Below, piece after piece: positions 6,756 to 25,558 of a stretch of 64,000 nucleotides of DNA; the first letter of the stretch is position 1, and every line of letters begins with the position of its first letter. This DNA comes from Novosphingobium sp. Chol11 (GTDB lineage Bacteria; Pseudomonadota; Alphaproteobacteria; Sphingomonadales; Sphingomonadaceae). Under the pieces are notes generated by a model that saw only the letters and a list, made by a program, of their open reading frames with translations, made no database searches and was not told the DNA's origin. The stretch covers positions 1,452,650 to 1,516,649 of the forward strand of contig NZ_OBMU01000001.1 of assembly GCF_900218065.1 (NCBI RefSeq), given 5' to 3'. Position numbers and translations under genes: made by a program.

Positions 6756-7802
6756 CTACTCCGCTGCGAGACCGGCGCTGGCTGTCGAGGCCGCTCCCGC
6801 GATGGCGCCATCAAAGGCGTAGTCGGGCATCTGCGAAAACAGCTCCTTCTCGAAGAAGGCGCAGGTGATCGCGAGCCCCTCGGCCAATGAGACGCGGGGT
6901 TCCCAGTCCAACAGTGTCCGCGCGCGCTTGATATCGGGGCGGCGGCGCCGGGGATCGTCGATGGGCAAGGGCTTGCGGATGACGCGTGACCTGGTGCCGG
7001 TCTGCGCCCTGACCAGTTCCAGCACCTCCATCATGCTATATTCTTCCGGATTGCCCAGGTTGATGGGCTGGAGGTCGGCCACGTCCGATTCCATCAGACG
7101 CATGAGCCCATCGACCATGTCAGACACATAGCAGAAGCTGCGCGTCTGCGATCCGTCGCCATAAATAGTGATGTCCTTCCCCGACAGCGCCTGGCAGACG
7201 AAGTTGGAGATGACCCGCCCATCGTCCGGATGCATGTTGGGGCCATAAGTATTGAAGATGCGTGCGACCCTGACGTCGGCGCGGCCCAGGCGAGCGAAGT
7301 CGAAGGCAATGGCTTCGGCGGCTCGCTTGCCCTCGTCATAACATGCGCGAGGGCCGGTGCAGTTCACCCAGCCACGATAATCCTCACGTTGGGGATGCGC
7401 TTCAGGATCGCCATAAACCTCACTGGTGGAGGTCAGGAGGAAACGGGCGTCATTCTGTTCCGCGAGCCTGAGCAGCCGATCCGTACCCACGACGCTGGTC
7501 AGCATCGTATGTTCAGGATCTGCCTGATATTGCGGAGGCGACGCTGCGCAGGCGAGATTGTAGATGCGCGTGATATCCCGGCGGCGCGTCACGGCGTCGG
7601 GCAACGGATCGACGATGTCGGCGCGGATGAAGCTGAAGGCGCGATGGCCCTCCAGCATTTCGAGATTCACTTCGCGCGCAGTCTGGAGATTGTCGAGGCA
7701 GATGACGTCATGCCCCTGTTCCAGAAGAGCGCGGCAAAGATGGGAACCGATAAAGCCAGCTCCGCCTGCGACCAGCGACACATTTTTGTTCATGCTTATC
7801 AT
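6756..7802 (-). CDS. NAD-dependent epimerase/dehydratase, UDP-glucuronate decarboxylase-like
   Basis: 348 aa short-chain dehydrogenase of the extended type. It has a Rossmann GGAGFIGSH motif near residue 12, the catalytic TSTSEVYGDP segment, Tyr/Lys in YDEGKRAAE, and RIFNTYGPNM with GDGSQTRSF. These resemble UDP-xylose synthase (Uxs/ArnA-type decarboxylases) more than GalE. The likely product is UDP-xylose or a related sugar nucleotide, but the substrate is not certain. It is the last gene of the seven-gene minus-strand arm and, unlike its partners, is separated by 31 bases with its own AAGGA ribosome-binding site. The C-terminal about 25 residues are Ala/Ser-rich. Ugd at 45309-46652 could supply UDP-glucuronate. 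Confidence 0.8.
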   Translation of the reverse strand: MISMNKNVSLVAGGAGFIGSHLCRALLEQGHDVICLDNLQTAREVNLEMLEGHRAFSFIRADIVDPLPDAVTRRRDITRIYNLACAASPPQYQADPEHTMLTSVVGTDRLLRLAEQNDARFLLTSTSEVYGDPEAHPQREDYRGWVNCTGPRACYDEGKRAAEAIAFDFARLGRADVRVARIFNTYGPNMHPDDGRVISNFVCQALSGKDITIYGDGSQTRSFCYVSDMVDGLMRLMESDVADLQPINLGNPEEYSMMEVLELVRAQTGTRSRVIRKPLPIDDPRRRRPDIKRARTLLDWEPRVSLAEGLAITCAFFEKELFSQMPDYAFDGAIAGAASTASAGLAAE

Positions 7803-7833: not shown

Positions 7834-8913
7834 TCATCCTGCGATTGCGACCTTATCCTGCGCCTGCATCGCCGAAGCTTCGTGGAGGTAGGTTTCGAGC
7901 TGCTGCGCTCGATGGTCGGCGGTATGTTCGGCGAGGATGCGGGCGCGCCCCGCTTCGCCGACAGCCGCGCGCTCCTCATCCAGCGCGACGATCACCTGCT
8001 CGGCATTCCAGGCGAACAATATCTCCTTGTTTGGTGTCAGCAGGTCGCCAAGGCCTGGCCAAACGTCCGAGATGATCGTGGTCCCGCAAGCCCCCGCCTC
8101 GAACAGCCGGACGGAGGGTGACCATCCCGCCTCAATCATGTCGGCGCGCGTCACGTTGAGGGTGAAGCGTGAGGCCGAATAGAATTCCGCATGGTCCTGC
8201 GGGGGCAGATGCTCGATCCGCTCCACATTGGCTGGCCAATCGATGTCCGCCGGATATTGCGGACCGGCTACGACGAAGCGCCGGTCAGGCATCAGGCGCG
8301 CGGGTTCGATCAGCAACCGTTCCAAGGTAGGCTGCCGATCTGGACTATAAGTGCCGAGATAGGACAGGTCCCAGCGCTTCGGCACATCTATCGGCCGGTA
8401 GGCCGCCGCATCGACCGAACAATAAAGTGCCCTCGCCATGGGCGAGCCATATTCACGCTCCAGCAGATCAAGCGTCGGGCCACCAGTGAAAGAGCAATAA
8501 ATGTCATATCCGGAGATGAGGTCTGGCGACAGATAATCACATTTTCCCGCACGCACATTGGCCAAGGTGATCGGCGTGTCGATGTCGTAGAAAAGCGTGG
8601 TGCCGCGGGCATGGCGCTGCACATATTGGCCGACCGCGATACCTTCCGGCACATAAGAACCGACCATGACCGCGTCGGCACTTTCGATCTCCCCGCGCCA
8701 GTGATCGAGCGAGGGAAGATCATCGTAGAACGCCAGACGGCAATAATCTGGATCCACTAGGTCTCGCTGGCTGGCATACCAGGGGACATCACGCTCAAGG
8801 AACAGAATGTCATGCCCCCGCTTGGCAAAAGCCGACAGCAGGGCTCGGAAGGTGGTGGCATGGCCATTGCCCCAGGAGGATGAGAGGCTGAGGCCGAGGA
8901 CGACGAGTTTCAT
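7834..8913 (-). CDS. CgeB-family glycosyltransferase (copy 1 of 3)
   Basis: 359 aa. The N-terminus MKLVVLGLSLSSSWGNGHA is a GT-B N-domain start. The C-terminal half contains the PF13524-type segment SPSVRLFEAGACGTTIISD followed by Asp/Gly-rich nucleotide-binding turns (about residues 265-310). CgeB-like proteins are retaining GT-B enzymes of mostly unknown acceptor specificity. The gene overlaps its upstream neighbour by 4 bases (ATGA) and shares N-terminal pattern and length with the next two genes, so the three look like tandem duplicates that have diverged. Cytoplasmic; no signal peptide. Confidence 0.82.
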   Translation of the reverse strand: MKLVVLGLSLSSSWGNGHATTFRALLSAFAKRGHDILFLERDVPWYASQRDLVDPDYCRLAFYDDLPSLDHWRGEIESADAVMVGSYVPEGIAVGQYVQRHARGTTLFYDIDTPITLANVRAGKCDYLSPDLISGYDIYCSFTGGPTLDLLEREYGSPMARALYCSVDAAAYRPIDVPKRWDLSYLGTYSPDRQPTLERLLIEPARLMPDRRFVVAGPQYPADIDWPANVERIEHLPPQDHAEFYSASRFTLNVTRADMIEAGWSPSVRLFEAGACGTTIISDVWPGLGDLLTPNKEILFAWNAEQVIVALDEERAAVGEAGRARILAEHTADHRAQQLETYLHEASAMQAQDKVAIAG

Positions 8914-10013
8914 GCTCTTTCCATCTCCTGTTGCGGTGTCTTGGCGGCACTCCGTTCACGCAGAATGGCATCCACCTGCTCTCCACGCAGGGCGTAGCTG
9001 TGTTCGGCGCGGACGCGGGCAAGAGCGGCTCGGCCAATCATCCGCGCGCGTTCGGGGGTGAGCGTAGCGAGGTGGTCGGCGACGTCCTGCCCGTCGCGGG
9101 CGACCAGCACTTCCTCATCAGGCTTCAGGAACAACTCAATGCCTTCCCAGGCGTCGGTGATGAGGCAGGCTCCTGCTCCCGCTGCTTCGAAAACGCGGGT
9201 GGCAGGAGAGAAACCGATATGCGCCATGCTGTCCCGGGCGACGTTGAGCACCGCGAGCGGCGTACAGTTGAAAGCATTATGTTCCGCCGTGTACACATGG
9301 CCGCGATGGCGAACGTTGGACGGCATCGCCTTGCTTTCCCATCCATTGCCACCGATGAGAAAGCTGCGTTCTGAAAGCAACGTGGCGGGCTTGAGGAAAA
9401 ATTCCTCGACCCGGGCTTCACGGTCCGGCAGGCGATTGCCTAGAAACGCCAGGTCGCAGGCGAAGCGCGGGTCCGGTTCGACCGGGAAGTGGCTCTGCGG
9501 ATCGAGGGCATTGTAAACGGGAATGCTCTCGCGCGCGCCCATTTCCCGATAAGCGCTCACCACCGGATCGCCGCCGCCATAGGTCAGCACGAGGTCCAGC
9601 CCCGGGAGCGCCCGCCGGACAGCATGATCGGGCGCCGCCCGCATTTCATCCAGAGTAGCCGCCGCATCCACATCCCAGAAGATACGCAGCGCGTCAGGGC
9701 GAGCGCGCTCCATCACGCCTTGCAATAGCTCGTCATCGAACACACCGACGCCGCTCGCCTTCACCACGACATCAGCGCTCGCCGCCTGATCCATCACCTC
9801 GTTCAGCGCTTCGGTCGTTGCAGGATAGACCACGACGGGCGCCCATTCAGGCGGATCGATGTCGCGATGCTGCTGGCGATCAAAGGCGTCGGGCTCGAAG
9901 AATGTGACGTCATGGCCGCGCTCAGCCAGTTCGCGCAGGATGCCGCGATAATAGGTCGCCGCCCCATTCCAGTAGGAGGAAAGCAGGCTGGAACCGTAGA
10001 AGGCAATTCTCAT
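8910..10013 (-). CDS. CgeB-family glycosyltransferase (copy 2 of 3)
   Basis: 367 aa GT-B protein. The start MRIAFYGSSLLSSYWNGAA matches the SLLSS-W-NG pattern of its neighbours. The C-terminal segment FSPATRVFEAAGAGACLITD is the CgeB/Glyco_trans_1_2 donor-site signature. It overlaps the genes on both sides by 4 bases, implying translational coupling. It probably adds a sugar to the glycan or glycolipid built by this locus; the donor is unknown. Confidence 0.82.
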   Translation of the reverse strand: MRIAFYGSSLLSSYWNGAATYYRGILRELAERGHDVTFFEPDAFDRQQHRDIDPPEWAPVVVYPATTEALNEVMDQAASADVVVKASGVGVFDDELLQGVMERARPDALRIFWDVDAAATLDEMRAAPDHAVRRALPGLDLVLTYGGGDPVVSAYREMGARESIPVYNALDPQSHFPVEPDPRFACDLAFLGNRLPDREARVEEFFLKPATLLSERSFLIGGNGWESKAMPSNVRHRGHVYTAEHNAFNCTPLAVLNVARDSMAHIGFSPATRVFEAAGAGACLITDAWEGIELFLKPDEEVLVARDGQDVADHLATLTPERARMIGRAALARVRAEHSYALRGEQVDAILRERSAAKTPQQEMERA

Positions 10014-11134
10014 GCGACATTCCTTGCAAGCGAGATCGGTGTGGCGGAGGCATTGAGCGACGCGATGATCCCCACAAGCTGCTCTGCGCGATGCGCACAG
10101 CTATGGCGGCTGCGTATCGTTTCCAGTCCGCTGCGGATCAGCGACGCGCGCAGGTCCGGATCGGATGCAACTGCGCGAAGATGATCCGCCATTTCCTTCC
10201 CATCGCTCGCGAATAGGAAGTCCTGCTCGGAACGGAAGAGATGCTCGCTATCCTCCCATGGCGCCGACAGCAGCGGAATGCCGCAGGCCAGCGCTTCAAA
10301 CACGCGGATGGTCGGGATGCCGGGCAGCAGCTGCGTGTAGTAGCGGCGCGGCACATGAACCGTGGCGAGATGCTGCGCGAAGATGGCAGGCGCGCGAGCA
10401 TTGGCTGCCCAGCCATGATAATCTACGCCATAGCGCTTTAGTGTGGCGAGGGCCTCGTCAGGATAGCGTACCCCGTAGATGTCGAGGGGCAAGTTAGCCT
10501 GTGACGCCGGGCGAAAAAGGAAATCTTCCAATTCGGCTGTTCGCTCGCCATCGCCCCAGTTTCCAATCCAGACGACGCCTTGGCGATCCTTCTCCACCTG
10601 AGGCGGACGGAAATGCTTGAGGTCTGCTGCTTCGTGCCAGGTCCAGACGCGGTCGCCCCAGCCCCAACGGCGATAAACCTCGGACAAGGTCTCACCGAAC
10701 GCCAGCACCCCGTCATAGGCCGACAGGTCGAAAGCCCGGATTGCCTGGGGATCTGAGACGGCACGGTGGTGCGTGTCGTGGAAGAGGAGCGTGAATGTCG
10801 CGCCTCTTGCACGGAGGCTGCCAAGGGCGGCTACCAGCGTGGGATCATTCCACTCATGCACGATGACGACCTCGGCACCATCAATTAGCGCTTCCGGTTC
10901 ACTGTCGGGCCCATAGCTGAAGGTTTTGAGTTCAGGGTAGGCGGCATGAAAGGCAGAGAGGCCTGCTTCGCCATGATCCGAAAGAAGGTTGGAGAGGCTC
11001 CAATTGCCTTGCGGCTCCAGCGCCAGCACATCATGGCCCAGAGCGGCCAGTTCGCGCAGCACGCCGCGAAGGAAATGCGCGTTGCCATGGTTCCAGCATG
11101 ATAGCAGCGAGTGGGTGAAATAGCGGATCTTCAT
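10010..11134 (-). CDS. CgeB-family glycosyltransferase (copy 3 of 3)
   Basis: 374 aa from the ATG at 11134, which forms an ATGA overlap with the upstream gene's stop; a 66-codon longer frame lies inside that gene and was rejected. It begins MKIRYFTHSLLSCWNHGNA, parallel to the two following paralogues. It contains a central TWHEAADLKHF region and a C-terminal IRVFEALACGIPLLSAPWED donor-binding segment typical of GT4/CgeB enzymes. Acceptor and donor are not identifiable from sequence. Confidence 0.82.
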   Translation of the reverse strand: MKIRYFTHSLLSCWNHGNAHFLRGVLRELAALGHDVLALEPQGNWSLSNLLSDHGEAGLSAFHAAYPELKTFSYGPDSEPEALIDGAEVVIVHEWNDPTLVAALGSLRARGATFTLLFHDTHHRAVSDPQAIRAFDLSAYDGVLAFGETLSEVYRRWGWGDRVWTWHEAADLKHFRPPQVEKDRQGVVWIGNWGDGERTAELEDFLFRPASQANLPLDIYGVRYPDEALATLKRYGVDYHGWAANARAPAIFAQHLATVHVPRRYYTQLLPGIPTIRVFEALACGIPLLSAPWEDSEHLFRSEQDFLFASDGKEMADHLRAVASDPDLRASLIRSGLETIRSRHSCAHRAEQLVGIIASLNASATPISLARNVA

Positions 11135-12213
11135 GCGGCGACCCTTTGTTCGGCCATGGCATAGTGGTGAGCCATCGCTCCCGCCATGGCAGCGGGGATG
11201 TAGCGGTGGGCGCGTTCCTGTGCCCTCCCCCCGGCGTCCAGGCGGGCAGCGCGGCTGCTCAGCATATGCTCGATCGCGCGGGCATAGCCTTTGGCATCGT
11301 TCGCATCGACGAAGGTGGCAGCGCCTTCCCACAACTCACGGAATGTCGGGATATCTGATAATATGAGGGCGCACCCGGCTGATGCCGCTTCGAGGACGGC
11401 AAGCCCGAACGGCTCGTAAAGCGCTGACGAAGCGAAGACTGGCCGCTCGCTTAGCCTCTCGGCGAGCCCAACCTCATCGAGCGTGCCGATCGCCTGAAGC
11501 GATTCTATGGCAAGCGCACCGCCATGTGGTGCGATGACCGGACCTGCGGCGAGAAAGGGAGCGCTGATCCGGGCAGCAGCCTCATCCAGCACGCGGACAT
11601 TCTTGCCGTCATCCCATAAACGCCCGGCCGTGAAGACATAATCGCGCATTGGTTTTCGCGCCGGGACTGGCAGAGCCCGGCCATTATGCACTGTAAAGGG
11701 CATGACGCCATAGACCCGCCGAACCGCCTCTGCGAAGGCTGTGCTGGGGGCGATCGCAACGGCGGCATGCTGAAGGCCGCGCGCCACCATCTCTGTCCGC
11801 CAGACGAAGTCCTCGGGCATGTCTCCGCCATGGACCGCCGCCCACCAGGTCGCGACGCAGCTATGCTGGACCGCGATAACAGGGCAGCGATAGCGCCCCA
11901 TGCTGACGAGCGCTGGCGTGTGTAGTTGAACAAGGTCCGCGCCGAGATCGCCCGCCATCTCGGCCAGACGCCGCTCGGCGTCGATCACCGGCGCGGGATC
12001 GGCCGCCAGCCAGTCAAGCTCAAGTCCGCTGTCGACCAGGCTGATATTGGCCGACCCGGCGATACTGTCGCGGGCTGCTTCATTGGGAGACGGTCCCATG
12101 ACCGCAAGCGTGACCTGGTAACCAAGTGGTTCGAGGGCGCGGGCAAGGTCGGTGGAATATTGCCAGACGCCGCCGACGGCATCGCATGTGAGCAATAGAT
12201 GACGCATCGCCAT
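11131..12213 (-). CDS. GT4-type glycosyltransferase
   Basis: 360 aa. It begins MAMRHLLLTCDAVGGVWQYS, typical of glycogen-synthase-like GT4 enzymes (VGG..QY.TDLA). It has a central VHNGRALP hinge and a C-terminal EPFGLAVLEAASAGCALILS with the GT4 EX7E pattern (E of EPF to E of LEAA). The ATG at 12213 shares one base with the preceding stop (TGATG); a TTG one codon further up is possible. It probably extends the glycan made by this operon. Confidence 0.85.
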   Translation of the reverse strand: MAMRHLLLTCDAVGGVWQYSTDLARALEPLGYQVTLAVMGPSPNEAARDSIAGSANISLVDSGLELDWLAADPAPVIDAERRLAEMAGDLGADLVQLHTPALVSMGRYRCPVIAVQHSCVATWWAAVHGGDMPEDFVWRTEMVARGLQHAAVAIAPSTAFAEAVRRVYGVMPFTVHNGRALPVPARKPMRDYVFTAGRLWDDGKNVRVLDEAAARISAPFLAAGPVIAPHGGALAIESLQAIGTLDEVGLAERLSERPVFASSALYEPFGLAVLEAASAGCALILSDIPTFRELWEGAATFVDANDAKGYARAIEHMLSSRAARLDAGGRAQERAHRYIPAAMAGAMAHHYAMAEQRVAA

Positions 12214-13292
12214 CAAAGCGCCCTCGCCGCCATCGCGGGGGCCGCGACGGCCTTACGCTCCGGCCGTTCAGCAAGCAGCCATTCCGCCAGGTCGGCGACC
12301 CCCTTCTGCCATGGCGTTCGGGGTTTGAGATCCACCGCCTTCTGAAGCTTGCGCGTATCCGCCACGAAATAGCGCTGATCGCCTGCACGCCAGTCCGCCA
12401 TGTCGATAAGTGGCTGGCGGCCGACATAGTCGCCAATGAACTTCAAAATCTGGTGCAGGCTGACGGCATTGTCCGGCCCGCCTCCCAGGTTGAAGGCCTG
12501 GCCGCTGAGCCTGTCGATGTCGCGCCATACCGAAAGATAGGCACCGACCGCGTCCCGCACGTCGAGAATGTCGCGAACCTGACAGCCATCACCATAGAGG
12601 ATGATGCGCCGCCCTTCGATCGCGCTGATCAGGAAGTGAGCGACCCAGCCCTGGTCCTCCGTCCCCATCTGCCGCTGACCATAAATGCAGCTCATACGCA
12701 GCACGGCCGTGGGCACGCCGAAGCTGCGCCCATAGTCGAGCACATATTGATCCGCCGCCCCTTTCGAACAGCCATAGGGGGTGTGGAAGTCGAGCGGGCG
12801 GCTTTCGTCTATGCCATGCTCGCGCGAGGTGCTTTCGGCCGGATGATAGGCGCCGCCCTCAAGCCGAAACTCTACATCCTCAAGACCACCATAGACCTTG
12901 TTCGTCGATGCGAAGATCACCGGCGGCGGAGAAACGCAGCGCCGTGCGGCCTCCAGCACGTTGAACGTGCCGAGCATATTGACCTCAAGGTCTGCGCGCG
13001 GGTCGGAAAAGCTGGTGGTGACGGCGACCTGCGCCGCCATGTGGAACACAGCCTTGGCCTTGGCTACAGCCCCCTCCACCTGCCCCCCATTCCGGACATC
13101 AGCGATGATGGGGACGATGCTGGCCCCATGGCGCTGTTCCAACCATCTGAGGTTCCGCTCAACCCCTGGACGGGCAAGGCTGTCGTAGATGATGACCTCC
13201 TCGCCTTCCCCAGCCAGCCGGTCAGCGATGTTGCTGCCGATGAAGCCAGCGCCACCGGTAACAAGAACAGGTCTGCGATCGGGCGGCGTCAT
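12213..13292 (-). CDS. NAD-dependent sugar epimerase, CDP-paratose/tyvelose-2-epimerase-like
   Basis: 359 aa from the ATG at 13292, which overlaps the upstream gene by 4 bases. It is an extended SDR: GGAGFIGSN near residue 13, catalytic Ser/Thr region FASTNKVYGG, Tyr/Lys in YGCSKGAADQY, then MSCIYGQRQMGTEDQGWVAH. That last stretch is characteristic of CDP-paratose 2-epimerase-like (TyvE/RfbE) enzymes. The actual sugar is unknown. The presence of two SDRs side by side suggests two sugar-nucleotide conversions feed the glycosyltransferases below. Confidence 0.82.
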   Translation of the reverse strand: MTPPDRRPVLVTGGAGFIGSNIADRLAGEGEEVIIYDSLARPGVERNLRWLEQRHGASIVPIIADVRNGGQVEGAVAKAKAVFHMAAQVAVTTSFSDPRADLEVNMLGTFNVLEAARRCVSPPPVIFASTNKVYGGLEDVEFRLEGGAYHPAESTSREHGIDESRPLDFHTPYGCSKGAADQYVLDYGRSFGVPTAVLRMSCIYGQRQMGTEDQGWVAHFLISAIEGRRIILYGDGCQVRDILDVRDAVGAYLSVWRDIDRLSGQAFNLGGGPDNAVSLHQILKFIGDYVGRQPLIDMADWRAGDQRYFVADTRKLQKAVDLKPRTPWQKGVADLAEWLLAERPERKAVAAPAMAARAL

Positions 13293-14401
13293 GCGACCAG
13301 CCCTCTTGCTTCGAGTTCGGCGCGCGCCTGATCGACACGATCGTCGGCGGTCTGCTGCGCCACCCATTCGGCCAGTTCGGCAAGACCTTCCTGAAAGTCC
13401 TGCCTTGCCCGGAAGCCGAGTTTCTCCTCCGCCAGGCTGGTGTCGCAGAAACAATGACGTATGTCGCCTGTGCGCGCCTTGCCGACAATCTCGGGCTCGA
13501 TGCTGTTGCGCCCCATCGCCTGCGCCAGCTTCTCCGCCACTTCCGTAACAGATCGATCATGGCCAGAACCGATATTGAAGGTGCCGCCGGCCGCTTGCGG
13601 CAGTTCAAGCGCGTCGGCGAATGCGCGCGCGACGTCACTCACATGCACGAAGTCGCGGCGTTGCTCGCCATCTTCGAAGATCATCGGCTTCTGACCGTTC
13701 AGCAGCCGGGATGCGAAGATCGCCAGCACGCCAGTGTAGGGATTGGAAAGCGCCTGCCCCGGCCCGTAGACGTTGAACAGTCGCAGGCAGACGCCCTCCA
13801 TCCCATAGGGAGCCGTCATGATATGGGTCGTGCGTTCCTGCACATATTTGTTGAGGGCGTAGATGGACGCGAGGTTAGGCCGCTTCCACTCCGGCGTGGC
13901 GATCGGCGTGAGCGGACGCCCTGCTCCGTCAAGCGGTTCCCAAATCTTCTGATTGTCGCGAATGGCACCGCGCTCTGCATCCTGAACGACTTGACCGTCC
14001 GCGTCGCGATAGAGCCCCTCGCCATAGATGCTCATCGAGGACGCGGTAACAACGCGCCGGACGGGGTTGCCGATCAGCCTTTCAAAGAGAACAGCCGTCC
14101 CCACATCATTGACGGATGTGTAACGTTCCACCTCATACATGGACTGTCCCACGCCTACCTCGGCGGCGAGATGGATAACGCTGTCCACGCCTTTGAGGGC
14201 ATGCTCGACCACATCGCCGTTGCGCACGTCCCCGCGGATCAGTTCTACCTCGCTATCCAGATCCTCGGGCCGCTCACCATCGCCGTGGACTTGTTCGATC
14301 AGATTATCGAGCACGCAAACTCTGTTCCCGCGCGCCAGCAACTCCTTGCAAACCGCCCGGCCGATAAAGCCCGCTCCGCCAGTGACGAGTATATTCTCCA
14401 C
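13289..14401 (-). CDS. NAD-dependent epimerase/dehydratase, GalE/WbpP-like
   Basis: 370 aa. The start was placed at GTG 14401 because AGGGGA lies about 6 bases before it; an in-frame ATG at 14416 lacks a ribosome-binding site. The Rossmann motif GGAGFIG falls at residues 8-14. TASSMSIYGEG and YALNKYVQE supply the catalytic Ser and Tyr-xxx-Lys, and RLFNVYGPGQ is typical of UDP-hexose 4-epimerases. It is the first gene of the minus-strand arm, transcribed divergently from the phosphatase gene. Confidence 0.82.
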   Translation of the reverse strand: MENILVTGGAGFIGRAVCKELLARGNRVCVLDNLIEQVHGDGERPEDLDSEVELIRGDVRNGDVVEHALKGVDSVIHLAAEVGVGQSMYEVERYTSVNDVGTAVLFERLIGNPVRRVVTASSMSIYGEGLYRDADGQVVQDAERGAIRDNQKIWEPLDGAGRPLTPIATPEWKRPNLASIYALNKYVQERTTHIMTAPYGMEGVCLRLFNVYGPGQALSNPYTGVLAIFASRLLNGQKPMIFEDGEQRRDFVHVSDVARAFADALELPQAAGGTFNIGSGHDRSVTEVAEKLAQAMGRNSIEPEIVGKARTGDIRHCFCDTSLAEEKLGFRARQDFQEGLAELAEWVAQQTADDRVDQARAELEARGLVA

Positions 14402-14668
14402 GGCCAATCCCCTCATGATGGTGAAACAGCCGCGGGAAAGGCGGCTCATTGCAGTAGGGCAACAACAGGTAATGGCAGCAGCAACATCTTCTTCTACCGG
14501 CAAGTTCCCCGAGTTTTCGCCCGACATTAACGATAGAGCCAACAGAATATCTCTGATTACTAACCTATATTATCTGCACTAACTTATGTGTATCATTAGC
14601 TTTTACTTGCCTACGAAAGTCGGATCGGATATGGAACTTTCCTGACTTCGATATTGTTAGCAGCATCT
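14402..14668. promoter_or_regulatory. Divergent promoter region between the two glycan arms
   Basis: 267 bases separate the outward-facing starts at 14401 and 14669. The part from about 14525 to 14660 is clearly AT-richer than the flanking coding DNA, as expected for promoters. I could not assign specific -35/-10 boxes or an operator with confidence; no perfect palindrome longer than about 10 bp was noticed. Confidence 0.35.
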
Positions 14669-15295
14669 ATGTTGATGCTTGCGACACCCCAGAAAACACA
14701 TCACACTTGTTTTCACCTCATTCGCCATGGCGCGCATGATGAGTTGGGACGAGTTCTGAGCGGACGCGCGGGAAGCATTCCTTTGAATGAGGAAGGAGGC
14801 CGTCAGGCGAAAGCTTTGTCGCGCTGGGCGACCCAAGAACATGTCAGCGCTATTTACTCCAGCCCCCGCCCGCGCACCGTGGAAACGGCTTCGATAATCG
14901 CAGGCGCGGCCAACTTGGAGGTACAGATCGCGCCGGATTTGGATGAGCTCGATTTCGGCGCTTGGAACGGCAAGGCATTTGACGAGCTGAGTGCAGATCC
15001 CCTCTGGCAGCGCTGGAATGACAGCAGGGCCACCGCCGCCACCCCCGGTGGCGAAACGATGGCGGCCGCGATCGATCGAGGGGTCGCGTTTCTGAACTCC
15101 TTGGCGGAAGCTCAGCCCGGCGGCACGTTCCTGTGCGTCACCCATTGCGACATCATCCGGGGCATGGTCGCCCATTTTTTGGGTTTAAGCTTCGACAACA
15201 TCCTCAAATTCGACGTTCAGCCTGGATCGGTCAGCACGGTGCTGCTCGGCCCGTCCGGCGGTCGCGTCTCTCGCCTGAATGAGGTGCCAGCATGA
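14669..15295 (+). CDS. Histidine phosphatase (phosphoglycerate-mutase superfamily)
   Basis: About 208 aa from ATG 14669 (ATG 14675 and TTG 14654 are alternatives). It has the catalytic RHG motif in FHLIRHGAHDE, a second basic site in SSPRPRTVETA, the DELDFGAWNGK loop with the proton donor, and the second catalytic His in VTHCDIIRG. This is the arrangement of alpha-ribazole/sugar-phosphate phosphatases. It heads the operon containing inositol-3-phosphate synthase, so one possible (unproven) role is to dephosphorylate inositol phosphate or a sugar phosphate. It overlaps the methyltransferase gene by 4 bases. Confidence 0.85.
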   Translation: MLMLATPQKTHHTCFHLIRHGAHDELGRVLSGRAGSIPLNEEGGRQAKALSRWATQEHVSAIYSSPRPRTVETASIIAGAANLEVQIAPDLDELDFGAWNGKAFDELSADPLWQRWNDSRATAATPGGETMAAAIDRGVAFLNSLAEAQPGGTFLCVTHCDIIRGMVAHFLGLSFDNILKFDVQPGSVSTVLLGPSGGRVSRLNEVPA

Positions 15296-16119
15296 AGACA
15301 GTGAAGATCGCCGCTGACCACAAGGATGATGGCGACCTTCGTCGTCGGATTGCAGAACTGGGTCCTTGGTTTCACAATCTGCACATCGGCGGGATAGAGA
15401 CCGCGCCAGATCATTTCCTGGGGGATTATCCCGCCTTCAAGTTCGCCCGGTTCGCAGACGCCCTGCCTGAAGACCTCACTGGCAAGTCGGTCCTCGACAT
15501 TGGCTGCAACGCTGGCTTCTATTCCATTGAAATGAAGCGCCGTGGCGCGGCGGAGGTCATAGGGATCGATTCAGACGATCGGTATCTGGCGCAGGCACGC
15601 TTTGCAGCCGGCGCGCTCGGCTATGATGAAATCAGCTTCCACAATCTTTCAGTCTATGACGTGGCAAAGCTTGGTCGGCGGTTCGATGTCGTCATCTTCA
15701 TGGGAGTGCTCTATCACCTGCGGCACCCGCTGCTCGCGCTGGACCTGATCCGCGAACATGTCGCGGGCGACTTGCTGCTGTTCCAGACAATGCAACAGGG
15801 GTCGGCCGATGTCCTGCTGGTGCCGGAAGACCACCCCTTCCACGTTCCCGGCACCAACCGGCCTCCCACCTTTTTCGACAATCCCGCCTTCCCGCGAATG
15901 CACTTTATCGAACGCAAGTTCGCGCATGACTGGACCAACTGGTGGGCGCCCAACAAGGCAGGCAGTCAGGCGCTGTTGCGTGCCGCCGGGTTCACCATCG
16001 AGGCCGAACCCGAAGAGGAAGTCTATCTCTGCCGCGTTGCTCCCGTCCCCTATGCGGACCTGATGGGCAGCGCGGCGGTCTATCCAGCACAATCACCGCA
16101 GGAGGTAACGCAGGCATGA
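15292..16119 (+). CDS. SAM-dependent methyltransferase (TIGR04290-like)
   Basis: 275 aa class I methyltransferase. Motif I is LDIGCNAGFYS (about residues 65-75), the acidic loop is GIDSDDRYL, and a later motif is VIFMGVLYHLRHP. The N-terminal GPWFHNLHIGGIETAP and the overall pattern resemble CmoB-like wobble-uridine methyltransferases and, from memory, the TIGR04290 family found in glycan or inositol cassettes. The glycan context argues for methylation of a sugar or cyclitol rather than tRNA, but that is inference. It overlaps both neighbours by 4 bases. Confidence 0.8.
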   Translation: MKTVKIAADHKDDGDLRRRIAELGPWFHNLHIGGIETAPDHFLGDYPAFKFARFADALPEDLTGKSVLDIGCNAGFYSIEMKRRGAAEVIGIDSDDRYLAQARFAAGALGYDEISFHNLSVYDVAKLGRRFDVVIFMGVLYHLRHPLLALDLIREHVAGDLLLFQTMQQGSADVLLVPEDHPFHVPGTNRPPTFFDNPAFPRMHFIERKFAHDWTNWWAPNKAGSQALLRAAGFTIEAEPEEEVYLCRVAPVPYADLMGSAAVYPAQSPQEVTQA

Positions 16120-17039
16120 TCGAAGCCGCGATGATCTGGAACGAGCCCAACAACAAATCGCATTGGGACCTGGAGATCGATCCCGACTGGTCCCGCTATG
16201 CAGACATGGTGGTCCGGGCCGGATCAGCCATTCAGGACGCTAATCCGGCGGTGACGCGCGTATTGGGCGGCATGTCTCCGATCGATCCCCACTGGGTCAA
16301 CCGCATGCGCGATCATGGCGCGCTTGATGCTGTGGATGTCGTGGCAGTCCATGGCTTCCCGCTCGACTGGAATTTGTGGCCGATCCATGACTGGCCGGAC
16401 AAGATTGCGGAGATCGAAGCGGTCGTTCCAGACAAGCCGATCTGGGTGACGGAGGTCGGCGTCGGCTCCTTCGGGGCAGAGGAAGTGCAGGTGTTCGGCG
16501 TCAACCGCACGGCGGAACTGCTTGTCGGCCGCGTGCCCCGCATCTTCTGGTACAGCCTTTATGATTTGCCCCAGGAATGGGGGGCAACCACCCGGCACCG
16601 CGAGGCCGAAGGGTCGAGCTATTACCGCCATTTCTACATGGGACTCATCCGGGCGGATGGCACGCCAAAGCCTGCGCTGGAGGATTATGCCAAGGTGGCT
16701 GGCGACATGGGGTTGATGCAGTGGTTTCATTTCGAAGACCCGCGCCTGGATGATGCCGTGGCCTGGATGAAGCGTCTCGGCGTCCGCCACCTTCGCACTG
16801 GCCTGTCCTGGGCCGACAGCTTCCGGCCCAATGCAATCGACTGGTTCGACCGCCAGATGGAGGCGTTGGCGGACTTCGACGTGACGGTGACCTTCTGCTT
16901 CACGCCCGAGCATCTGGGCATCGCCCCCCATCATAGCAGCGCGGTTCACGAGCCCGATGCTTTCGCTGATTTCTGCGCCTGGATGATCGATCGCTACGCC
17001 CCCGCATCGGCAACCATGCCAGCGGTTCGCACCGCCTGA
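16116..17039 (+). CDS. Clan GH-A glycoside hydrolase-like protein, apparently circularly permuted
   Basis: 307 aa from the ATG overlapping the methyltransferase stop, with GGAGG about 10 bases upstream. The acid/base motif WNEPN (Glu10) stands at the very N-terminus and the nucleophile motif WVTEVGVGS (Glu113) follows. IFWYSLYDL near residue 145 resembles barrel strand 8. Residues 198-297 then look like strands 1-3 that normally precede the acid/base: QWFHFEDPRL, GVRHLRTGLSWADSF and DVTVTFCFTPEHLG. The order is therefore beta4-8 then beta1-3. Homologues are often labelled beta-xylosidase. No signal peptide, so probably cytoplasmic. Confidence 0.75.
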   Translation: MIEAAMIWNEPNNKSHWDLEIDPDWSRYADMVVRAGSAIQDANPAVTRVLGGMSPIDPHWVNRMRDHGALDAVDVVAVHGFPLDWNLWPIHDWPDKIAEIEAVVPDKPIWVTEVGVGSFGAEEVQVFGVNRTAELLVGRVPRIFWYSLYDLPQEWGATTRHREAEGSSYYRHFYMGLIRADGTPKPALEDYAKVAGDMGLMQWFHFEDPRLDDAVAWMKRLGVRHLRTGLSWADSFRPNAIDWFDRQMEALADFDVTVTFCFTPEHLGIAPHHSSAVHEPDAFADFCAWMIDRYAPASATMPAVRTA

Positions 17040-17051: not shown

Positions 17052-18197
17052 ATGACGTCATCACCGCATAGCCTGGCGAGGCAGCCGATCAACATCGCCA
17101 TCATCGGCGTGGGCAATTGCGCCAGCTCGCTGGTTCAGGGGCTGTCCCACTACAGGGCTGAAAGCAATGATCATCTGGGGCTGATGCATTGGGATCTTGG
17201 CGGCTACCGTCCTTGCGACATTCAGGTGGTCGCAGCCTGGGACATCGACCGGCGCAAGGTCGGGCAAGATGTCGCGCAGGCCATCTTTGCGAAGCCCAAC
17301 TGCACCCAGACCTTCTGCCGCGAGGTGCCCGAACAGGGTGTGAAGGTGGAGATGGGCCACATTCTCGACGGCTATGCAGAGCATATGGCGGATCATCCGG
17401 ACGATCGGACCTTCCTCCTAGCAGAAGAGGAAGCTCAGCCGAGCCGCAGCGATATCGTCAGACGCTTGCGAGAAGCGAAGGTGGACGTGCTTCTGAATTA
17501 TTTGCCCGTTGGATCGCAGGAGGCGACCGAATTCTACGCGCAGTGTGCGCTGGACGCGGGCGTGGCATTTGTGAACAACATCCCGGTCTTCATCGCCAGC
17601 GATCCCAAATGGGCGGCGCGTTTTGAAAGCGCAGGCGTTCCAATCATCGGCGATGACATCAAGGCACAGTTGGGCGCGACCATCGTCCATCGGGTGCTGA
17701 CCGACCTGTTCGCCAAGCGCGGCGTGAAGCTGGACCGCACCTATCAGCTCAACACCGGCGGCAACACCGACTTCCTCAACATGTCGAACCGTACCCGGCT
17801 GAAGTCCAAGAAGATTTCGAAAACGGAGGCTGTGCAATCGGTCGCTGAAACCCGGCTGGAGGATGAGAATATCCACATCGGCCCGTCGGATTATGTCGCC
17901 TGGCAGAATGACAACAAGGTTTGTTTCCTGCGCATGGAAGGGCAGCTGTTCGGGGGCGTTCCGATGAACCTTGAACTGCGCCTGTCGGTGGAGGACAGCC
18001 CCAATTCGGCTGGAGTGGCGATCGACATGATCCGCTGCGCCAAGGTGGCGTTGGACCGCGGCATTGGCGGGCCCGTCCATCCTGCCGCTGCCTATTTCTG
18101 CAAGCACCCTCCGGACCAAATGACTGACGACCGAGCATATGAGGCGCTTGAAGCCTTCATCAATGGAGAGGGCGCGGTGGCGCTGGCGGCGGAATGA
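17052..18197 (+). CDS. Inositol-3-phosphate synthase
   Basis: 381 aa. The NAD-binding N-terminus INIAIIGVGNCASSLVQGL is followed by LNYLPVGSQEAT, NNIPVFIAS, the Lys-containing GDDIKAQLGATIVHR and QLNTGGNTDFLNM, all hallmarks of myo-inositol-1-phosphate synthase of the actinobacterial/archaeal size class. It converts glucose 6-phosphate to 1L-myo-inositol 3-phosphate. Myo-inositol is uncommon in proteobacterial envelopes, so this is a strong clue that the locus makes an inositol-derived product. It starts 12 bases after the hydrolase gene with GGAGAAGGAG upstream, and overlaps the next gene. Confidence 0.92.
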   Translation: MTSSPHSLARQPINIAIIGVGNCASSLVQGLSHYRAESNDHLGLMHWDLGGYRPCDIQVVAAWDIDRRKVGQDVAQAIFAKPNCTQTFCREVPEQGVKVEMGHILDGYAEHMADHPDDRTFLLAEEEAQPSRSDIVRRLREAKVDVLLNYLPVGSQEATEFYAQCALDAGVAFVNNIPVFIASDPKWAARFESAGVPIIGDDIKAQLGATIVHRVLTDLFAKRGVKLDRTYQLNTGGNTDFLNMSNRTRLKSKKISKTEAVQSVAETRLEDENIHIGPSDYVAWQNDNKVCFLRMEGQLFGGVPMNLELRLSVEDSPNSAGVAIDMIRCAKVALDRGIGGPVHPAAAYFCKHPPDQMTDDRAYEALEAFINGEGAVALAAE

Positions 18198-19222
18198 TGG
18201 ATCAGATGATGCCCCTCACCATAGATGACGGCCGCGGAGATCATACTGGTTATGCGCCTGCCGCCACGATGCGGGTAGCGACCGTCACGGCACCGGGCAC
18301 GGTGCGGATCGACCATGCGCAACTTCCTGAGCCAGGACCGGGGCAGGTCCGGTTGAAGCTGGAAGGATGCGGTGTCTGCGCATCCAATCTGACGCCATGG
18401 GCCGGGCCGGAATGGCAGCAATATCCGCTGGAACCCGGGTCTCTGGGCCATGAAGGATGGGGTATCGTCGACGCCGTGGGTGAGGCTGTTACCAGTGTGA
18501 AGCCGGGCGATCGGGTCACGGCCCTCTCTTATGCCAGCTATGCTGAATATGATCTGGCAGAAGAGTCTGCGGTCGTTCCCTTGCCTCCTGCCCTTGATGG
18601 CGTGCCGTTTCCCGGAGAGCCGCTGGGCTGCGCATTCAACATCTTCCGCCGGGCCGACATTCACGCTGGTCAAACCGTCGCCATAATCGGCGCCGGTTTT
18701 CTGGGCGCTATATTGACGCAGCTCGCAACCGAATCTGGCGCTCGCGTGATCGCAATATCGCGTCGGCAGTGCTCGCTCGATCTCGCCCGCAGCTATGGTG
18801 CTGCTGAAACGATCATGATGGACGACCATCACGCCATCATCAATCGGGTGGGCGACCTCACCGGCGGCCGCTTTTGCGATCGGGTCATCGAGGCCGTGGG
18901 CAAACAATGGCCGCTCGACCTGGCAGCCGAACTCACCGCAGAGCGCGGCAAGCTGATCATCGCAGGCTATCATCAGGACGGCCCCCGCCAGGTCAATATG
19001 TGGCTCTGGAACTGGCGTGGGATTGACGTCATCAATGCGCATGAGCGCGATCCCGCCACCTATGTGGAAGGCATCAGGGAAGCCGTCGAAGCCGTCGCGT
19101 CGGGCCGACTGGACCCGGCGCCGCTCTATACGCATCGCTATCCGCTTGAGCAGCTGGGCGAAGCACTAGACGCCACCCGCGACAAACCGGACAATCTCGT
19201 GAAGGCGCTGGTAATCCTATGA
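18194..19222 (+). CDS. Zinc-type (MDR) alcohol/polyol dehydrogenase
   Basis: 342 aa medium-chain dehydrogenase. The N-terminal GroES-like catalytic domain carries EGCGVCASNLTPW (putative zinc Cys) and GHEGWGIV. The Rossmann domain carries AIIGAGFLGAILTQ (about residues 157-170). The structural-zinc four-Cys loop is not evident. It lies between inositol-3-phosphate synthase and a Gfo/Idh/MocA oxidoreductase, so oxidation of an inositol or sugar hydroxyl is a reasonable guess. ATGA-type overlaps join it to both neighbours. Confidence 0.85.
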   Translation: MMDQMMPLTIDDGRGDHTGYAPAATMRVATVTAPGTVRIDHAQLPEPGPGQVRLKLEGCGVCASNLTPWAGPEWQQYPLEPGSLGHEGWGIVDAVGEAVTSVKPGDRVTALSYASYAEYDLAEESAVVPLPPALDGVPFPGEPLGCAFNIFRRADIHAGQTVAIIGAGFLGAILTQLATESGARVIAISRRQCSLDLARSYGAAETIMMDDHHAIINRVGDLTGGRFCDRVIEAVGKQWPLDLAAELTAERGKLIIAGYHQDGPRQVNMWLWNWRGIDVINAHERDPATYVEGIREAVEAVASGRLDPAPLYTHRYPLEQLGEALDATRDKPDNLVKALVIL

Positions 19223-20256
19223 ACCTTTCCTCCAGCGAAGCCCTCGCCTCCGCGATTACTCTACCTCGCCCCCGCCTGGGGTTCCTTGGCGTCGGCTGGA
19301 TCGGCCGCAACCGGATGGAAGCGATGCTCGCGACCGGCGGCATCGAAGCTGCGGCGATCGCCGACGCGCTCCCCGGCAATACAGCGGACGCTGCGCTGCT
19401 TGCACCGGATGCTGCACAGCTGGACTCGTTCGACGCCTTGCTGGAGCGGGATCTGGACGGCATCGTCATCGCCACGCCTAGTGCGCTGCATGCCGAACAG
19501 TCGATCCGTGCGTTGGAGCGCGGCAACCCTGTCTTCTGCCAGAAGCCGCTGGGGCGGAGCAGCGCCGAAGTGGAGGCCGTGATCGCAGCCGCCAGGGCGT
19601 CCGACCGCCTGCTGGGCGTTGATCTCTCCTATCGCGGGACCGAGGGCATGCGAGCGATCAAGCAGCAAGTCGACGGCGGGGAGTTGGGCCCGATCCATGC
19701 AATCGATCTGACCTTCCACAATGCGTATGGTCCTGACAAACCGTGGTTCTATGATCCTAAGCTGTCGGGAGGCGGCTGCATGATGGACCTGGGGGTTCAT
19801 CTCATCGATCTCGCTCTCTGGACGCTAGGGTTCCCGCAAGTGGACCATATCGACGCCGACCTGTTCAGTAAGGGTCACCCGCTGACCGACAGGGATAGCC
19901 AGGTCGAGGACTTCGGGATTGCCACGCTCCGCCTTGCCGACGGATGCGTTGTGCGCATCGCCTGCTCCTGGCACCTTCCTGCGGGGCAGGACGCCGTCAT
20001 CACCGCAGACTTCTTCGGGAGCAAGGCAGGTGCAGCCTTCCGCAACGTCAACGCCTCCTTCTATGACTTCAAGGCGGAGCTTTTCCATGGCACCGCGCGG
20101 CAGACGCTGGCGGAGCCAGGCGACGCTTGGGGCGGGCAAATGGCGAGTGCCTGGGCAACGCAACTCGCCCGATCTCCCCGCTTCGATCCGCAATGCGAAA
20201 GCTTCGCCGCCATCGCGGCCGTCATGGACGGTATTTACGCCGCGAGCCTGCGTTAG
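19219..20256 (+). CDS. Gfo/Idh/MocA-family oxidoreductase
   Basis: 345 aa. It has an N-terminal NAD(P)-binding GFLGVGWIGRNRMEAML, the family's KP motif in VFCQKPLGRSSAEVE, and the C-terminal domain with GGGCMMDLGVHLIDLALW (catalytic-region His). Members include inositol 2-dehydrogenase and sugar-nucleotide oxidases. With the alcohol dehydrogenase and inositol-3-phosphate synthase it suggests redox remodelling of a cyclitol. It ends the plus-strand arm and overlaps the convergent FrhB-like gene by 4 bases. Confidence 0.88.
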   Translation: MNLSSSEALASAITLPRPRLGFLGVGWIGRNRMEAMLATGGIEAAAIADALPGNTADAALLAPDAAQLDSFDALLERDLDGIVIATPSALHAEQSIRALERGNPVFCQKPLGRSSAEVEAVIAAARASDRLLGVDLSYRGTEGMRAIKQQVDGGELGPIHAIDLTFHNAYGPDKPWFYDPKLSGGGCMMDLGVHLIDLALWTLGFPQVDHIDADLFSKGHPLTDRDSQVEDFGIATLRLADGCVVRIACSWHLPAGQDAVITADFFGSKAGAAFRNVNASFYDFKAELFHGTARQTLAEPGDAWGGQMASAWATQLARSPRFDPQCESFAAIAAVMDGIYAASLR

Positions 20257-21641
20257 CCCAGCCGCCGTTCCGCCCAGTCGAATGCGGCGCCCAATCGCCC
20301 ACGTGAATAGGTGACGCCATGATAGAGCTTTAACATCAGGCGCCCCCAAACCATGAAGATGCCTGGTCGTCCCAGCCTTTTCGCCAGCTGGAATGCATCG
20401 CTGCTCCCTCGGCTGATCCTGTGCCGCAAGCGGTATATCAGCTTCCGCCGCCATCCAAGATGGTGATGCCCGGAGTGTACACGTTTACGCGGCTTTACGC
20501 CTCGCCGGGCCCATCCGAGGCGATAGGCGAGCCCTTCCCGCCGCTGCCGGAAGCCCGCTGCTTGAGTCTCCCGCACAAAGTCGGCATCGACGGCGCTGAG
20601 CGCGACGCGGCCTTGCTCCAGCCCGTTTCGCAAAAGCGCGTGGATCTCAGGGGACCGTACGACCACGACGTTGGTCCCGCGGCCATCCGAAGAATAGGGT
20701 TCTACCCACGCATCACCGAAGCTGATGTCGGCCGTCTCCGCCACTACATCATCACAAAAATCGCACGCGCTGTTCTGGAAGAAGCCAGATCCCCAGTCGC
20801 CATCGACGAGGTGCCACCAATCCTGTTGCCGCTCCTCACCATCCCGGCAAGAAAGTTGAGCCCTGTACCAGTTTGCCGGACGGCTCGGGTCCTTCAGCCG
20901 ATACTCCACCCGTGCCACATCACGCACATCGACGCCCATCTGCCAGCCGAAGCTCTCCACCATGTTCCGGCTCTTCATATGGCCGCACACCAGACCCAGC
21001 GTGAAAACGATGCGCTCACGCAGCACCGTATCCTGCGCGCAGGCCAGGTGAACCGCTTTGATAAAGCAAGGAATGCCGACGATGGCATAACGGCCCGGAA
21101 CGGCACGAATTTCCTCCAATATCCCTGCCATATCGACCGGATAATATCGGGACTTCGCGCCTCGGTTCAGCGCATCGAGATCACGCGAGATGCTGTAGCG
21201 AAAGAAGCGCCCGCCTGCGTCGGGATCGGCGGGTGCCACATGAGCGACGCCATCGACCAAGCCGCGCTGCAGCAGTTCTGCCCCGACCCAACTGACCATG
21301 CCGCCCGAACTGCCCCGATCACGGTAGCTGTCCTCCAAAGCGTGCCCAACATAGGCTCCCTCGAACCGGCCAATCCACTGATCCGATCCTGCGGCCTTGG
21401 GGAAAAGACGGGCCGCAATGCTATCTTCATCTTCTGACTGAGGCGAGAATGGGCAGAGAGTTGAGAAAGCACGGGTCCGCGAGCGCATCCATTCGCGCGG
21501 TCCATCCGGCTTCAACTGCCCTTCGCCATCCCAATCCATCCGGGCGCCGCTGCAAGCCGCCTCGGCCGCACATGCCCCGCACCCGATGCAAAGGCCGGAT
21601 CGCACCATGTCCAGTGGACTGACAGGCTCATCCCGACCCAT
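20253..21641 (-). CDS. FrhB-like iron-sulfur protein (coenzyme F420 hydrogenase/dehydrogenase beta-subunit family)
   Basis: 462 aa. An N-terminal ferredoxin-like cluster motif uses Cys18, 21, 24 and 30 (CIGCGACAAEAAC) and the CP at 63-64. Then comes the FrhB domain with RGSSGGMVSW, AKSRYYPVD, GIPCFIKAV, GLVCGHMKS and the C-terminal CDFC...DISFGDAW. Homologues sit in bacterial polysaccharide clusters next to pyruvyl transferases, where F420 is absent and the protein is thought to be a flavin/Fe-S reductase of unknown role. Basic, His-rich C-terminus. Last gene of a four-gene minus arm, 4 bases after the pyruvyl transferase gene. Confidence 0.85.
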   Translation of the reverse strand: MGRDEPVSPLDMVRSGLCIGCGACAAEAACSGARMDWDGEGQLKPDGPREWMRSRTRAFSTLCPFSPQSEDEDSIAARLFPKAAGSDQWIGRFEGAYVGHALEDSYRDRGSSGGMVSWVGAELLQRGLVDGVAHVAPADPDAGGRFFRYSISRDLDALNRGAKSRYYPVDMAGILEEIRAVPGRYAIVGIPCFIKAVHLACAQDTVLRERIVFTLGLVCGHMKSRNMVESFGWQMGVDVRDVARVEYRLKDPSRPANWYRAQLSCRDGEERQQDWWHLVDGDWGSGFFQNSACDFCDDVVAETADISFGDAWVEPYSSDGRGTNVVVVRSPEIHALLRNGLEQGRVALSAVDADFVRETQAAGFRQRREGLAYRLGWARRGVKPRKRVHSGHHHLGWRRKLIYRLRHRISRGSSDAFQLAKRLGRPGIFMVWGRLMLKLYHGVTYSRGRLGAAFDWAERRLG

Positions 21642-21645: not shown

Positions 21646-22731
21646 TCAGGGCACCAGCGCGTGGAGAAGATAATCGGCTGAATGTTGCCGCAACCGCGAC
21701 AACCGATCGCTCACTCGATCGTCAAGCGGGTCGGTAAGTAGAGAAGCATAAAATCCCGCGCCCGATCCCTGCCGGGCCAGTCGGCGTTCCAATCCCAAAC
21801 GTCGCATCAAATCATGAACCTTGTTCGCGCGATAGGAGGATGGCACCGTCACGAACGGCTTCTGGTTCAAAATCGCAAAAACGCAGCCGTGGAAGAAGCT
21901 GGTCACGACGGCATCCGCGCTCGCCATGAAGCGCGCAAATTCATGCGGTCCGGAGGCGAGGCGCTGCTCATCGGCCCAATCATTGCGGTAGCCGATGCTG
22001 ACGATCCGGCGGCCGCTTTTCATGGCCCATGCCCGGACATGATCCGACAACCAGCTGGGGAAATTATGTCCGTAAACGGCTACCATCCCCTCCCCTTCTC
22101 TCTCTTCGCCAGCGAATTGCGGCGGGAACTGAAGACAAGGGTCCAGCACCAGGGCCGGATCAACATCCAGCGCTGAACGAACCATGCTCCGGCTATTCTC
22201 ATCCCGCACCGAAAGCGAAGCAAAGCCGCGCAACTGATCCGCCCAATAGGGCGGAAGTCCATCGGCAGCATCCTGATTGCCGAAGCTGGCGGCATAGGAA
22301 ATCACCCGCCCGCGAAGGCCAGTTCCATAGAATGTCGCACATCCCCCGTACCAGGGATGGCGAAGGTTCCACACCTCGTCACTGCCTACGATGATAGCGT
22401 CATATTCCTCCAGCTTGTCCGGGCGGTGGAGAGGAAAAGCGACTGACAGGGGCAACTGAGCGAACGCCTCTAAAAATTTCCGGGTCTTGCGCCCGTAGGC
22501 TGCGAAGTCCGACCTCGGCGTCGGTTGAGGCAAGGTGGGACGAAAGGCGCATCTGATCTCGGCCCTTGCCGCAGCTGCGCATTCGTGATCCAGCAGCACC
22601 GCGTCCGCGCCCAACGCTCTCAGGCCGTCTACCAGGCACCGAGCCTGCCAATAGGAACCATAGTTGATGCAACGGTGAAAGGTCAGGATGCCAAGGCGCC
22701 TGCCCAGAAGAGGCTGATGCCTGCCGTGCAT
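21646..22731 (-). CDS. Polysaccharide pyruvyl transferase family protein
   Basis: 361 aa. PF04230-type features are GILTFHRCINYGSYWQARCL at the N-terminus, IIVGSDEVWNL, GYAASFG-like VISYAASFG, SVRDENS, VDPALVLDPCL, and the C-terminal VTSFFHGCVFAILNQKPFV. Members transfer a pyruvate ketal from phosphoenolpyruvate to a sugar of a surface polymer. Pairing with the FrhB-like gene is a recurrent arrangement in glycan loci. The ATG is directly adjacent to the stop codon of the DUF6165-like gene. Confidence 0.88.
   Translation of the reverse strand: MHGRHQPLLGRRLGILTFHRCINYGSYWQARCLVDGLRALGADAVLLDHECAAAARAEIRCAFRPTLPQPTPRSDFAAYGRKTRKFLEAFAQLPLSVAFPLHRPDKLEEYDAIIVGSDEVWNLRHPWYGGCATFYGTGLRGRVISYAASFGNQDAADGLPPYWADQLRGFASLSVRDENSRSMVRSALDVDPALVLDPCLQFPPQFAGEEREGEGMVAVYGHNFPSWLSDHVRAWAMKSGRRIVSIGYRNDWADEQRLASGPHEFARFMASADAVVTSFFHGCVFAILNQKPFVTVPSSYRANKVHDLMRRLGLERRLARQGSGAGFYASLLTDPLDDRVSDRLSRLRQHSADYLLHALVP

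Positions 22732-24354: not shown

Positions 24355-25558
<1,204 letters not shown>

Follow-up and report, generated by a model that had tools for sequence, protein, structure and literature searches.

A probable natural circular permutation of a clan GH-A glycosidase within a putative alphaproteobacterial glycan cluster

Introduction

Can a glycoside hydrolase (GH) of clan GH-A be encoded with the strands of its catalytic barrel in an order other than 1 to 8? The question is raised by a gene at positions 16116-17039 of a 64,000-nucleotide stretch of Novosphingobium sp. Chol11 (contig NZ_OBMU01000001.1, positions 1,452,650 to 1,516,649; hereafter the window). An initial annotation, made from the sequence alone, placed the motif WNEPN at residues 8-12 of the product, the motif WVTEVGVGS at residues 110-118 and a block resembling barrel strands 1-3 at residues 198-297, and proposed a circular permutation with the order 4-8 then 1-3. 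Both motif positions were reproduced in the translated open reading frame (ORF), and the analysis described here bears out the permuted order. The gene very probably encodes a naturally circularly permuted (beta/alpha)8 glycosidase of clan GH-A related to PslG and GH39, and a permuted GH-A barrel as such is close to certain. The strand order, the matches to normal-order relatives and to PslG, the conservation of the protein and its lack of an N-terminal extension are established by sequence comparison together with a structural model.

Results

Predicted fold and strand order

The AlphaFold2 model of the 307-residue protein (predicted local distance difference test score 83.7, predicted template modelling score (pTM) 0.86) contains eight beta/alpha units, of which 4-8 precede 1-3 along the chain. 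DSSP assigned strands 4-8 in this model to residues 4-7, 47-50, 75-79, 109-114 and 143-146, and strands 1-3 to residues 199-201, 225-231 and 255-261. The modelled chain appears to superpose on closed triosephosphate isomerase (TIM) barrels over its full length (residues 1-296), and the check for a closed barrel that the initial annotation had proposed thus came out in its favor. The chain would begin at strand 4, being opened in the loop that joins helix 3 to this strand, run through strand 8 and a short linker, and end with strands 1-3.

Besides the barrel itself, two traits of clan GH-A are present: the predicted acid/base E10 lies in a WNEP motif that follows the counterpart of strand beta 4, with an asparagine before the glutamate, and the predicted nucleophile E113 lies in strand 109-114, the equivalent of beta 7. 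A further trait, the encoded strand order, is departed from. PslG, which we take to be a GH39 enzyme, was the best solved match of both the permuted-family profile (E 5.8e-6) and a joint profile (E 1.5e-11). Its WNEP and WSTE motifs align with those around E10 and E113, which match the PslG active residues E165 and E276, respectively, as counted along the alignment. The permuted-family profile matched PslG in swapped pieces, residues 200-296 falling on chain positions 25-131 (weakly) and residues 4-154 on 133-302. Two segments homologous to the reference are exchanged with no part of the core repeated or missing, as expected of a circular permutation, and the folded barrel with both catalytic glutamates would be that of a retaining glycosidase.

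Profile libraries see only the first half of this protein. The Pfam family PF11790 (Glyco_hydro_cc) passed its cut-off of 21 with 23.5 bits, residues 3-147 covering profile positions 67-209 of 237, and the Pfam GH39 family (PF01229) stayed below its cut-off of 26, with 12.2 bits for the protein as encoded and 12.3 bits after rotation. The C-terminal 114 residues searched alone matched no Pfam family, the NCBIfam search of the glycosidase gave no family at E 0.1, a single-sequence search of the PDB returned nothing convincing, and no solved structure from the permuted family was among the PDB sequence matches. GH-A was not the top-ranked clan in sequential fold searches, an absence that is not counted as evidence against this clan. 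The clan assignment of the initial annotation stood, with the correction that GH39, its example, was recovered only weakly; as PslG is the nearest solved match, the protein is most safely called "GH39-like, clan GH-A".

Relatives with the normal strand order

The same genome searches identified distant relatives in which the two parts are reversed, with the counterpart of residues 196-295 immediately upstream of that of residues 7-185. Each of the normal-order (linear) relatives that were read is the N-terminal domain of an approximately 680-residue protein with an NAD-epimerase as its second half; such fusions were found in Rhizobium, Tistrella and others (e.g. loci L013, L106 and L184), and a further normal-order match lies in a 382-residue frame (L121) from a genome outside the class. 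Both catalytic glutamates are present in all 32 fused domains extracted, and both are lost in four more, all from one genus.

When the window protein was rotated at about residue 195, it aligned end to end with the linear relatives, with best local scores of 312-371 as opposed to 238-283 for the unrotated protein, the rotated form being better in all four comparisons. The block at residues 198-297 alone scored 102-127 against the linear N-termini in 4/4 comparisons, far above 500 shuffles (mean 32-33, s.d. 5.2-5.6, largest 54-69), so its likeness to linear strands 1-3 is not due to chance and the proposed strand 1-3 block is upheld. Across 13 linear and 12 rotated sequences, 54 columns were at least 90% conserved in both orders, and four rotated sequences had 33-35% identity to one linear domain.

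Six-frame segments from 218 fetched loci showed the order 4-8/1-3 in 161 cases, the order 1-3/4-8 in 44 and the first part only in 12; as some loci overlap, the 161 and 44 segments correspond to 154 and 32 distinct sequences. No segment of the 218 loci contained a repeated block that might represent a tandem-duplication intermediate, and relatives with N-terminal strands 1-3 had no second, C-terminal copy. No linear relative was found in viral contigs.

Conservation of the permuted form

A scan of genome contigs confirmed at least 571 relatives among 598 candidate stretches, of which 80 permuted loci were kept for the counts given below. The order 4-8/1-3 is fixed in all 80, with products of 303-347 residues, and the frame starts at the strand-4 position in each case (77 with ATG, GTG or TTG at that codon, three with the start one codon earlier). 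In 68 of the 77 loci, an upstream ORF of 150 codons or more ends in a TGA shared with the start codon; in the window, the glycosidase ATG at 16116 runs into the stop codon of the methyltransferase gene (TIGR04290; TGA at 16117-16119), in agreement with the ATGA-coupled operon of the initial annotation. Fewer than 20 open in-frame codons, and as few as two, lie upstream of the start in 15/80 loci whose proteins are otherwise the same, which rules out an undetected strand 1-3 block at the N-terminus of these proteins. Neither epimerase 2 (see below) nor any other part of the 80 loci carries a second GH block. The search for homologues with an additional N-terminal block, by which the permutation could have been overturned, was thus negative.

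As had been supposed, the gene is intact and not a decayed fragment. E10 is invariant in 10/10 sequences of one alignment (A1) and in 58/58 of another (A2, comprising 57 of the 80 loci and the window protein), and E113 is likewise invariant in both. The permuted protein was identified in three genomes, including that of the window, among 61 relatives, in 8/385 genomes of a class sample and in 12/398 genomes of a phylum sample, all 12 from the class of the window. The permuted glycosidase is intact and conserved in alphaproteobacteria.

Two forms in related genomes and the inositol-3-phosphate synthase homologue

Matches to the glycosidase were found in 53 of 297 Rhizobiaceae genomes, 25 with the permuted form and 28 with the linear form only; two of the 25 (G1039 and G1075) have both. 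Among plasmid records, the permuted query was covered over at least 80% in 97 of 147 matched records and the linear query in 50 of 146, the overlap between the two sets not having been compared record by record. In genus g282, four of five genomes (G408, G1160, G1161 and G1162; loci L190, L188, L187 and L186) combine a permuted GH elsewhere in the genome with a fused linear domain that lacks WNEPN and both glutamates and whose epimerase half is still open and alignable, whereas the fifth (G1159) showed no fusion. The notion that the linear domain is always dead alongside a permuted GH was refuted by G1039 and G1075, whose linear copies keep both glutamates. Decay was seen in one genus only, and it appears that a linear copy can decay once the permuted form is present but need not.

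In a tree of 55 rows (18 of 84 rotated permuted sequences, all 36 linear or decayed domains and one outgroup), the permuted and linear forms split on one long branch. With an outgroup branch of 8.6 changes per column and unsettled bootstrap values, the tree does not place the root or single out a closest linear ancestor. One of the linear relatives that most resemble the permuted form, G1128 (L184; 39% and 41% in its two pieces), nevertheless groups with the linear side.

The gene immediately downstream of the glycosidase in the window encodes a homologue of inositol-3-phosphate synthase (INO1). Whole-genome searches identified an INO1 homologue in all 66 permuted-GH genomes tested (25 Rhizobiaceae, five of genus g282, 31 genomes with a locus lacking INO1 and five from the family of the window), but in none of 30 linear-only genomes (28 Rhizobiaceae, G1128 and G1157). 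Among 58 genomes with neither form it was present in four, namely 2/17 Rhizobiaceae (drawn from 20 of the 244 match-free genomes) and 2/41 from the family of the window, including 0/33 in its genus. The two genes are 51-3306 bp apart in 30 permuted genomes (25 Rhizobiaceae and five of g282). INO1 lies at 43/80 permuted loci and is absent from 37, and the whole genomes behind 31 of those 37 all contain it (31/31). The association also holds within genera g556 and g486; the Fisher test for 25/25 versus 0/28 (p = 1.1e-15) is descriptive only, the genomes being related. Against the mycothiol-type INO1 model TIGR03450 the homologue scored 466.8 bits, below the cut-off of 638. It thus belongs to a separate branch, one that accompanies the permuted glycosidase, and the link suggests an inositol-containing intermediate or acceptor.

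Gene cluster around the glycosidase

The surrounding cluster is divergent (Table 1), with the decarboxylase-like gene, four glycosyltransferases and two epimerases on the minus strand and the genes from the histidine phosphatase to the Gfo/Idh oxidoreductase on the plus strand. Its four glycosyltransferases, UDP-xylose-type sugar supply, methyltransferase and epimerases point to glycan assembly. In the 69 of 80 permuted loci with at least 14 kb of sequence, homologues above set identity thresholds were counted for the epimerases (57), the glycosyltransferases (56), the methyltransferase (65) and the UDP-glucuronate-decarboxylase-like gene (39), and epimerase 2 was present in 65 of all 80. Epimerase 1 is homologous to the gene preceding the GH-epimerase fusion in linear clusters, and epimerase 2 to the epimerase half of that fusion (54% identity). 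The linear fusion occupies the position of this plain epimerase within the same core cluster in L106, L108 and L182, three stretches in which searches for homologues of INO1 and of the histidine phosphatase were negative.

Table 1. Features of the glycosidase gene and its cluster (positions in the window)
Feature	Position	Strand	Evidence
UDP-glucuronate-decarboxylase-like epimerase	6756..7802	-	PF01370/PF16363; 83% identity to L107 gene annotated UDP-glucuronic acid decarboxylase
Three glycosyltransferase genes	7834-8913, 8910-10013, 10010-11332 (longest ORF)	-	PF13524 in each
GT4-type glycosyltransferase	11131..12216	-	PF13439
NAD-dependent epimerase 2, without GH domain	12213..13454 (longest ORF; likely start near 13283)	-	PF01370 1.8e-45
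NAD-dependent epimerase 1	13289..14542 (longest ORF; start not fixed)	-	ORF; homology
Histidine-phosphatase-family protein	14654..15295	+	PF00300 2.5e-46
TIGR04290-family methyltransferase, ATGA overlap with glycosidase	15292..16119	+	377.9 bits, cut-off 300
Probable circularly permuted GH39/PslG-like glycosidase, 307 aa	16116..17039	+	Intact ORF; PF11790; AlphaFold2 barrel
Barrel strands 4-8, residues 1-190	16116..16685	+	DSSP strands; PslG alignment
Codon of predicted acid/base Glu10 (WNEPN)	16143..16145	+	Invariance; PslG E165 alignment
Codon of predicted nucleophile Glu113 (WVTEVG)	16452..16454	+	Invariance; PslG E276 alignment
Barrel strands 1-3, residues 197-296, displaced to C-terminus	16704..17003	+	DSSP; N-terminus of linear relatives; PslG weakly
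Inositol-3-phosphate synthase homologue (INO1)	17052..18197	+	PF01658 3.2e-37
Zinc-dependent dehydrogenase	18194..19222	+	PF00107/PF08240
Gfo/Idh/MocA oxidoreductase	19219..20256	+	PF01408/PF22725

The cluster is adjoined by a gene for an F420-hydrogenase beta-subunit-like protein (20253-21641, named from record annotations) and by a gene at 21646-22731, presumably polysaccharide pyruvyltransferase-like. Homologues of both occur in 22/69 long permuted loci, and they lie beside the permuted GH in the Rhizobiaceae loci L105, L181 and L183. A separate exopolysaccharide-type cluster, with sugar transferase, export, chain-length and polymerase-like genes as judged from their translations, is located a few kb downstream (26559-40690). 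Two genes about 23 kb apart on opposite strands (822-1868 and 24355-25527) have very similar translations, which we take to be rod-shape, MreB-like proteins.

Stress-type genes (a sigma-70-family sigma factor, a manganese catalase, a ferritin-like protein and an HWE kinase) lie near the glycan cluster in L106 and L107. Glycosyltransferases and an entry named "Glycosidases" are part of an EcfG-dependent gene set reported for Sphingomonas melonis (PMC6599016). The window contains two strict EcfG-type motifs, compared with 1.9 expected, and neither is near the cluster; EcfG stress regulation of the cluster is accordingly not claimed.

Discussion

Judging from its sequence, the permuted protein is likely to be an active retaining glycosidase or transglycosidase. 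It would act in the cytosol, inside a glycan-assembly cluster, as there is no room for a signal peptide and nearly all normal-order relatives found are fused to an NAD-epimerase. A two-step retaining mechanism with E10 as acid/base and E113 as nucleophile may be envisaged, in which an inositol glycoside made by the pathway would be cleaved or transglycosylated. The inositol-glycoside substrate is suggested by the tight co-occurrence with the INO1 homologue and is proposed only tentatively. As to the sugar, a beta-xylosidase label in several family records and the gene for UDP-xylose-type supply offer no more than hints.

A serious competitor of this proposal, although we lean against it, is that the permuted protein merely replaces the epimerase-fused linear GH in the same reaction and that the INO1 link is a by-product of gene linkage. 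The largely exclusive occurrence of the two forms in Rhizobiaceae and plasmid records, as well as the decayed linear domains of g282, fit a simple replacement. However, INO1 accompanies the permuted form and not the linear form alone, even where it lies outside the fetched locus, which indicates that the two forms differ in pathway context, and the two genomes that retain both forms with both glutamates are also at odds with mere replacement. A catalytically idle scaffold or regulator is very unlikely: no biochemical data on the permuted protein were found, which leaves room for such a role, but both glutamates and the surrounding active-site motifs are invariant, whereas the decayed linear relatives lose them. 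It is similarly improbable that the protein is a domain-swapped dimer in which strands 1-3 of one subunit complete the barrel of another; the shortness of the linker that connects strand 199-201 to the helix preceding the junction (186-192) would favor such an exchange, but the single chain is modeled as one barrel with a pTM of 0.86. Finally, the chance fusion of a glycosidase cut short to strands 4-8 with a C-terminal domain that is unrelated or incomplete, leaving the barrel open, can hardly be maintained despite the half coverage by Pfam, the unmatched C-terminal 114 residues and the weak match of the strand 1-3 piece to PslG by itself, since the C-terminal block aligns to linear strands 1-3 far above shuffles, the model yields an eight-unit fold and the whole protein is conserved in 80/80 loci.

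If the permuted barrel and the INO1 link are read together, the window protein might represent the first described natural circular permutation in clan GH-A, in which the permutation freed the enzyme from an ancestral epimerase fusion, allowed its translation directly behind another pathway gene and accompanied a switch to an inositol-containing glycan as substrate, the permuted enzyme and INO1 forming a single module that takes the place of the linear enzyme or adds to it. In its entirety this scenario is speculative and rather unlikely. Related bacteria carry the permuted and normal forms in the same pathway, in some cases within one genome, so the cost, the benefit and the order of events can be tested in natural pairs. 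The finding also gives an alphaproteobacterial glycan cluster a concrete partner, the INO1 homologue. It explains, moreover, why only half of the protein is annotated by profile libraries and why its clan is not ranked first in sequential fold searches; other permuted glycosidases may have been overlooked for the same reason.

Several known systems can be compared with the window protein. The GH39 beta-xylosidases (1px8, 6uqj and 4ekj), which have the normal strand order, gave weak profile matches around the acid/base region. The GH-epimerase fusions share a homologous domain, the same catalytic motifs and the same gene cluster core, but differ in their strand order 1-8, in the fused epimerase and in the lack of an INO1 homologue in linear-only genomes. 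The closest solved relative, PslG of Pseudomonas aeruginosa (4zn2/5bx9), shares the catalytic pair by alignment and is also encoded within a glycan-synthesis cluster, that of the Psl exopolysaccharide, but has the normal strand order and low sequence similarity to the window protein. PslG has been called intracellular with an elusive role and has been localized to the inner membrane and the periplasm, unlike the window protein with no room for a signal; it provides a precedent for a glycosidase acting inside a glycan-synthesis cluster (PMC9075953).

A literature search on circular permutation together with GH39 returned no paper, and no natural permutation in clan GH-A was among the matches listed, CAZy and subscription papers being outside the search. 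Natural permutation of a glycosidase barrel, as in the window protein, is found in the GH70 glucansucrases relative to GH13, enzymes that differ from the window protein in belonging to another clan and in having inserted domains. Their permutation cut falls around helix 3, and their chemistry is alpha-retaining. There the catalytic (beta/alpha)8 barrel of clan GH-H is naturally permuted such that motif I has moved behind motifs II-IV, as described in one report (PMC9732880), and 1,973 circularly permuted pairs are given for SCOPe in another (PMC12667903). With the GH70 case established and none found for GH-A, the permuted barrel of the window protein appears to be known in kind but new for its clan.
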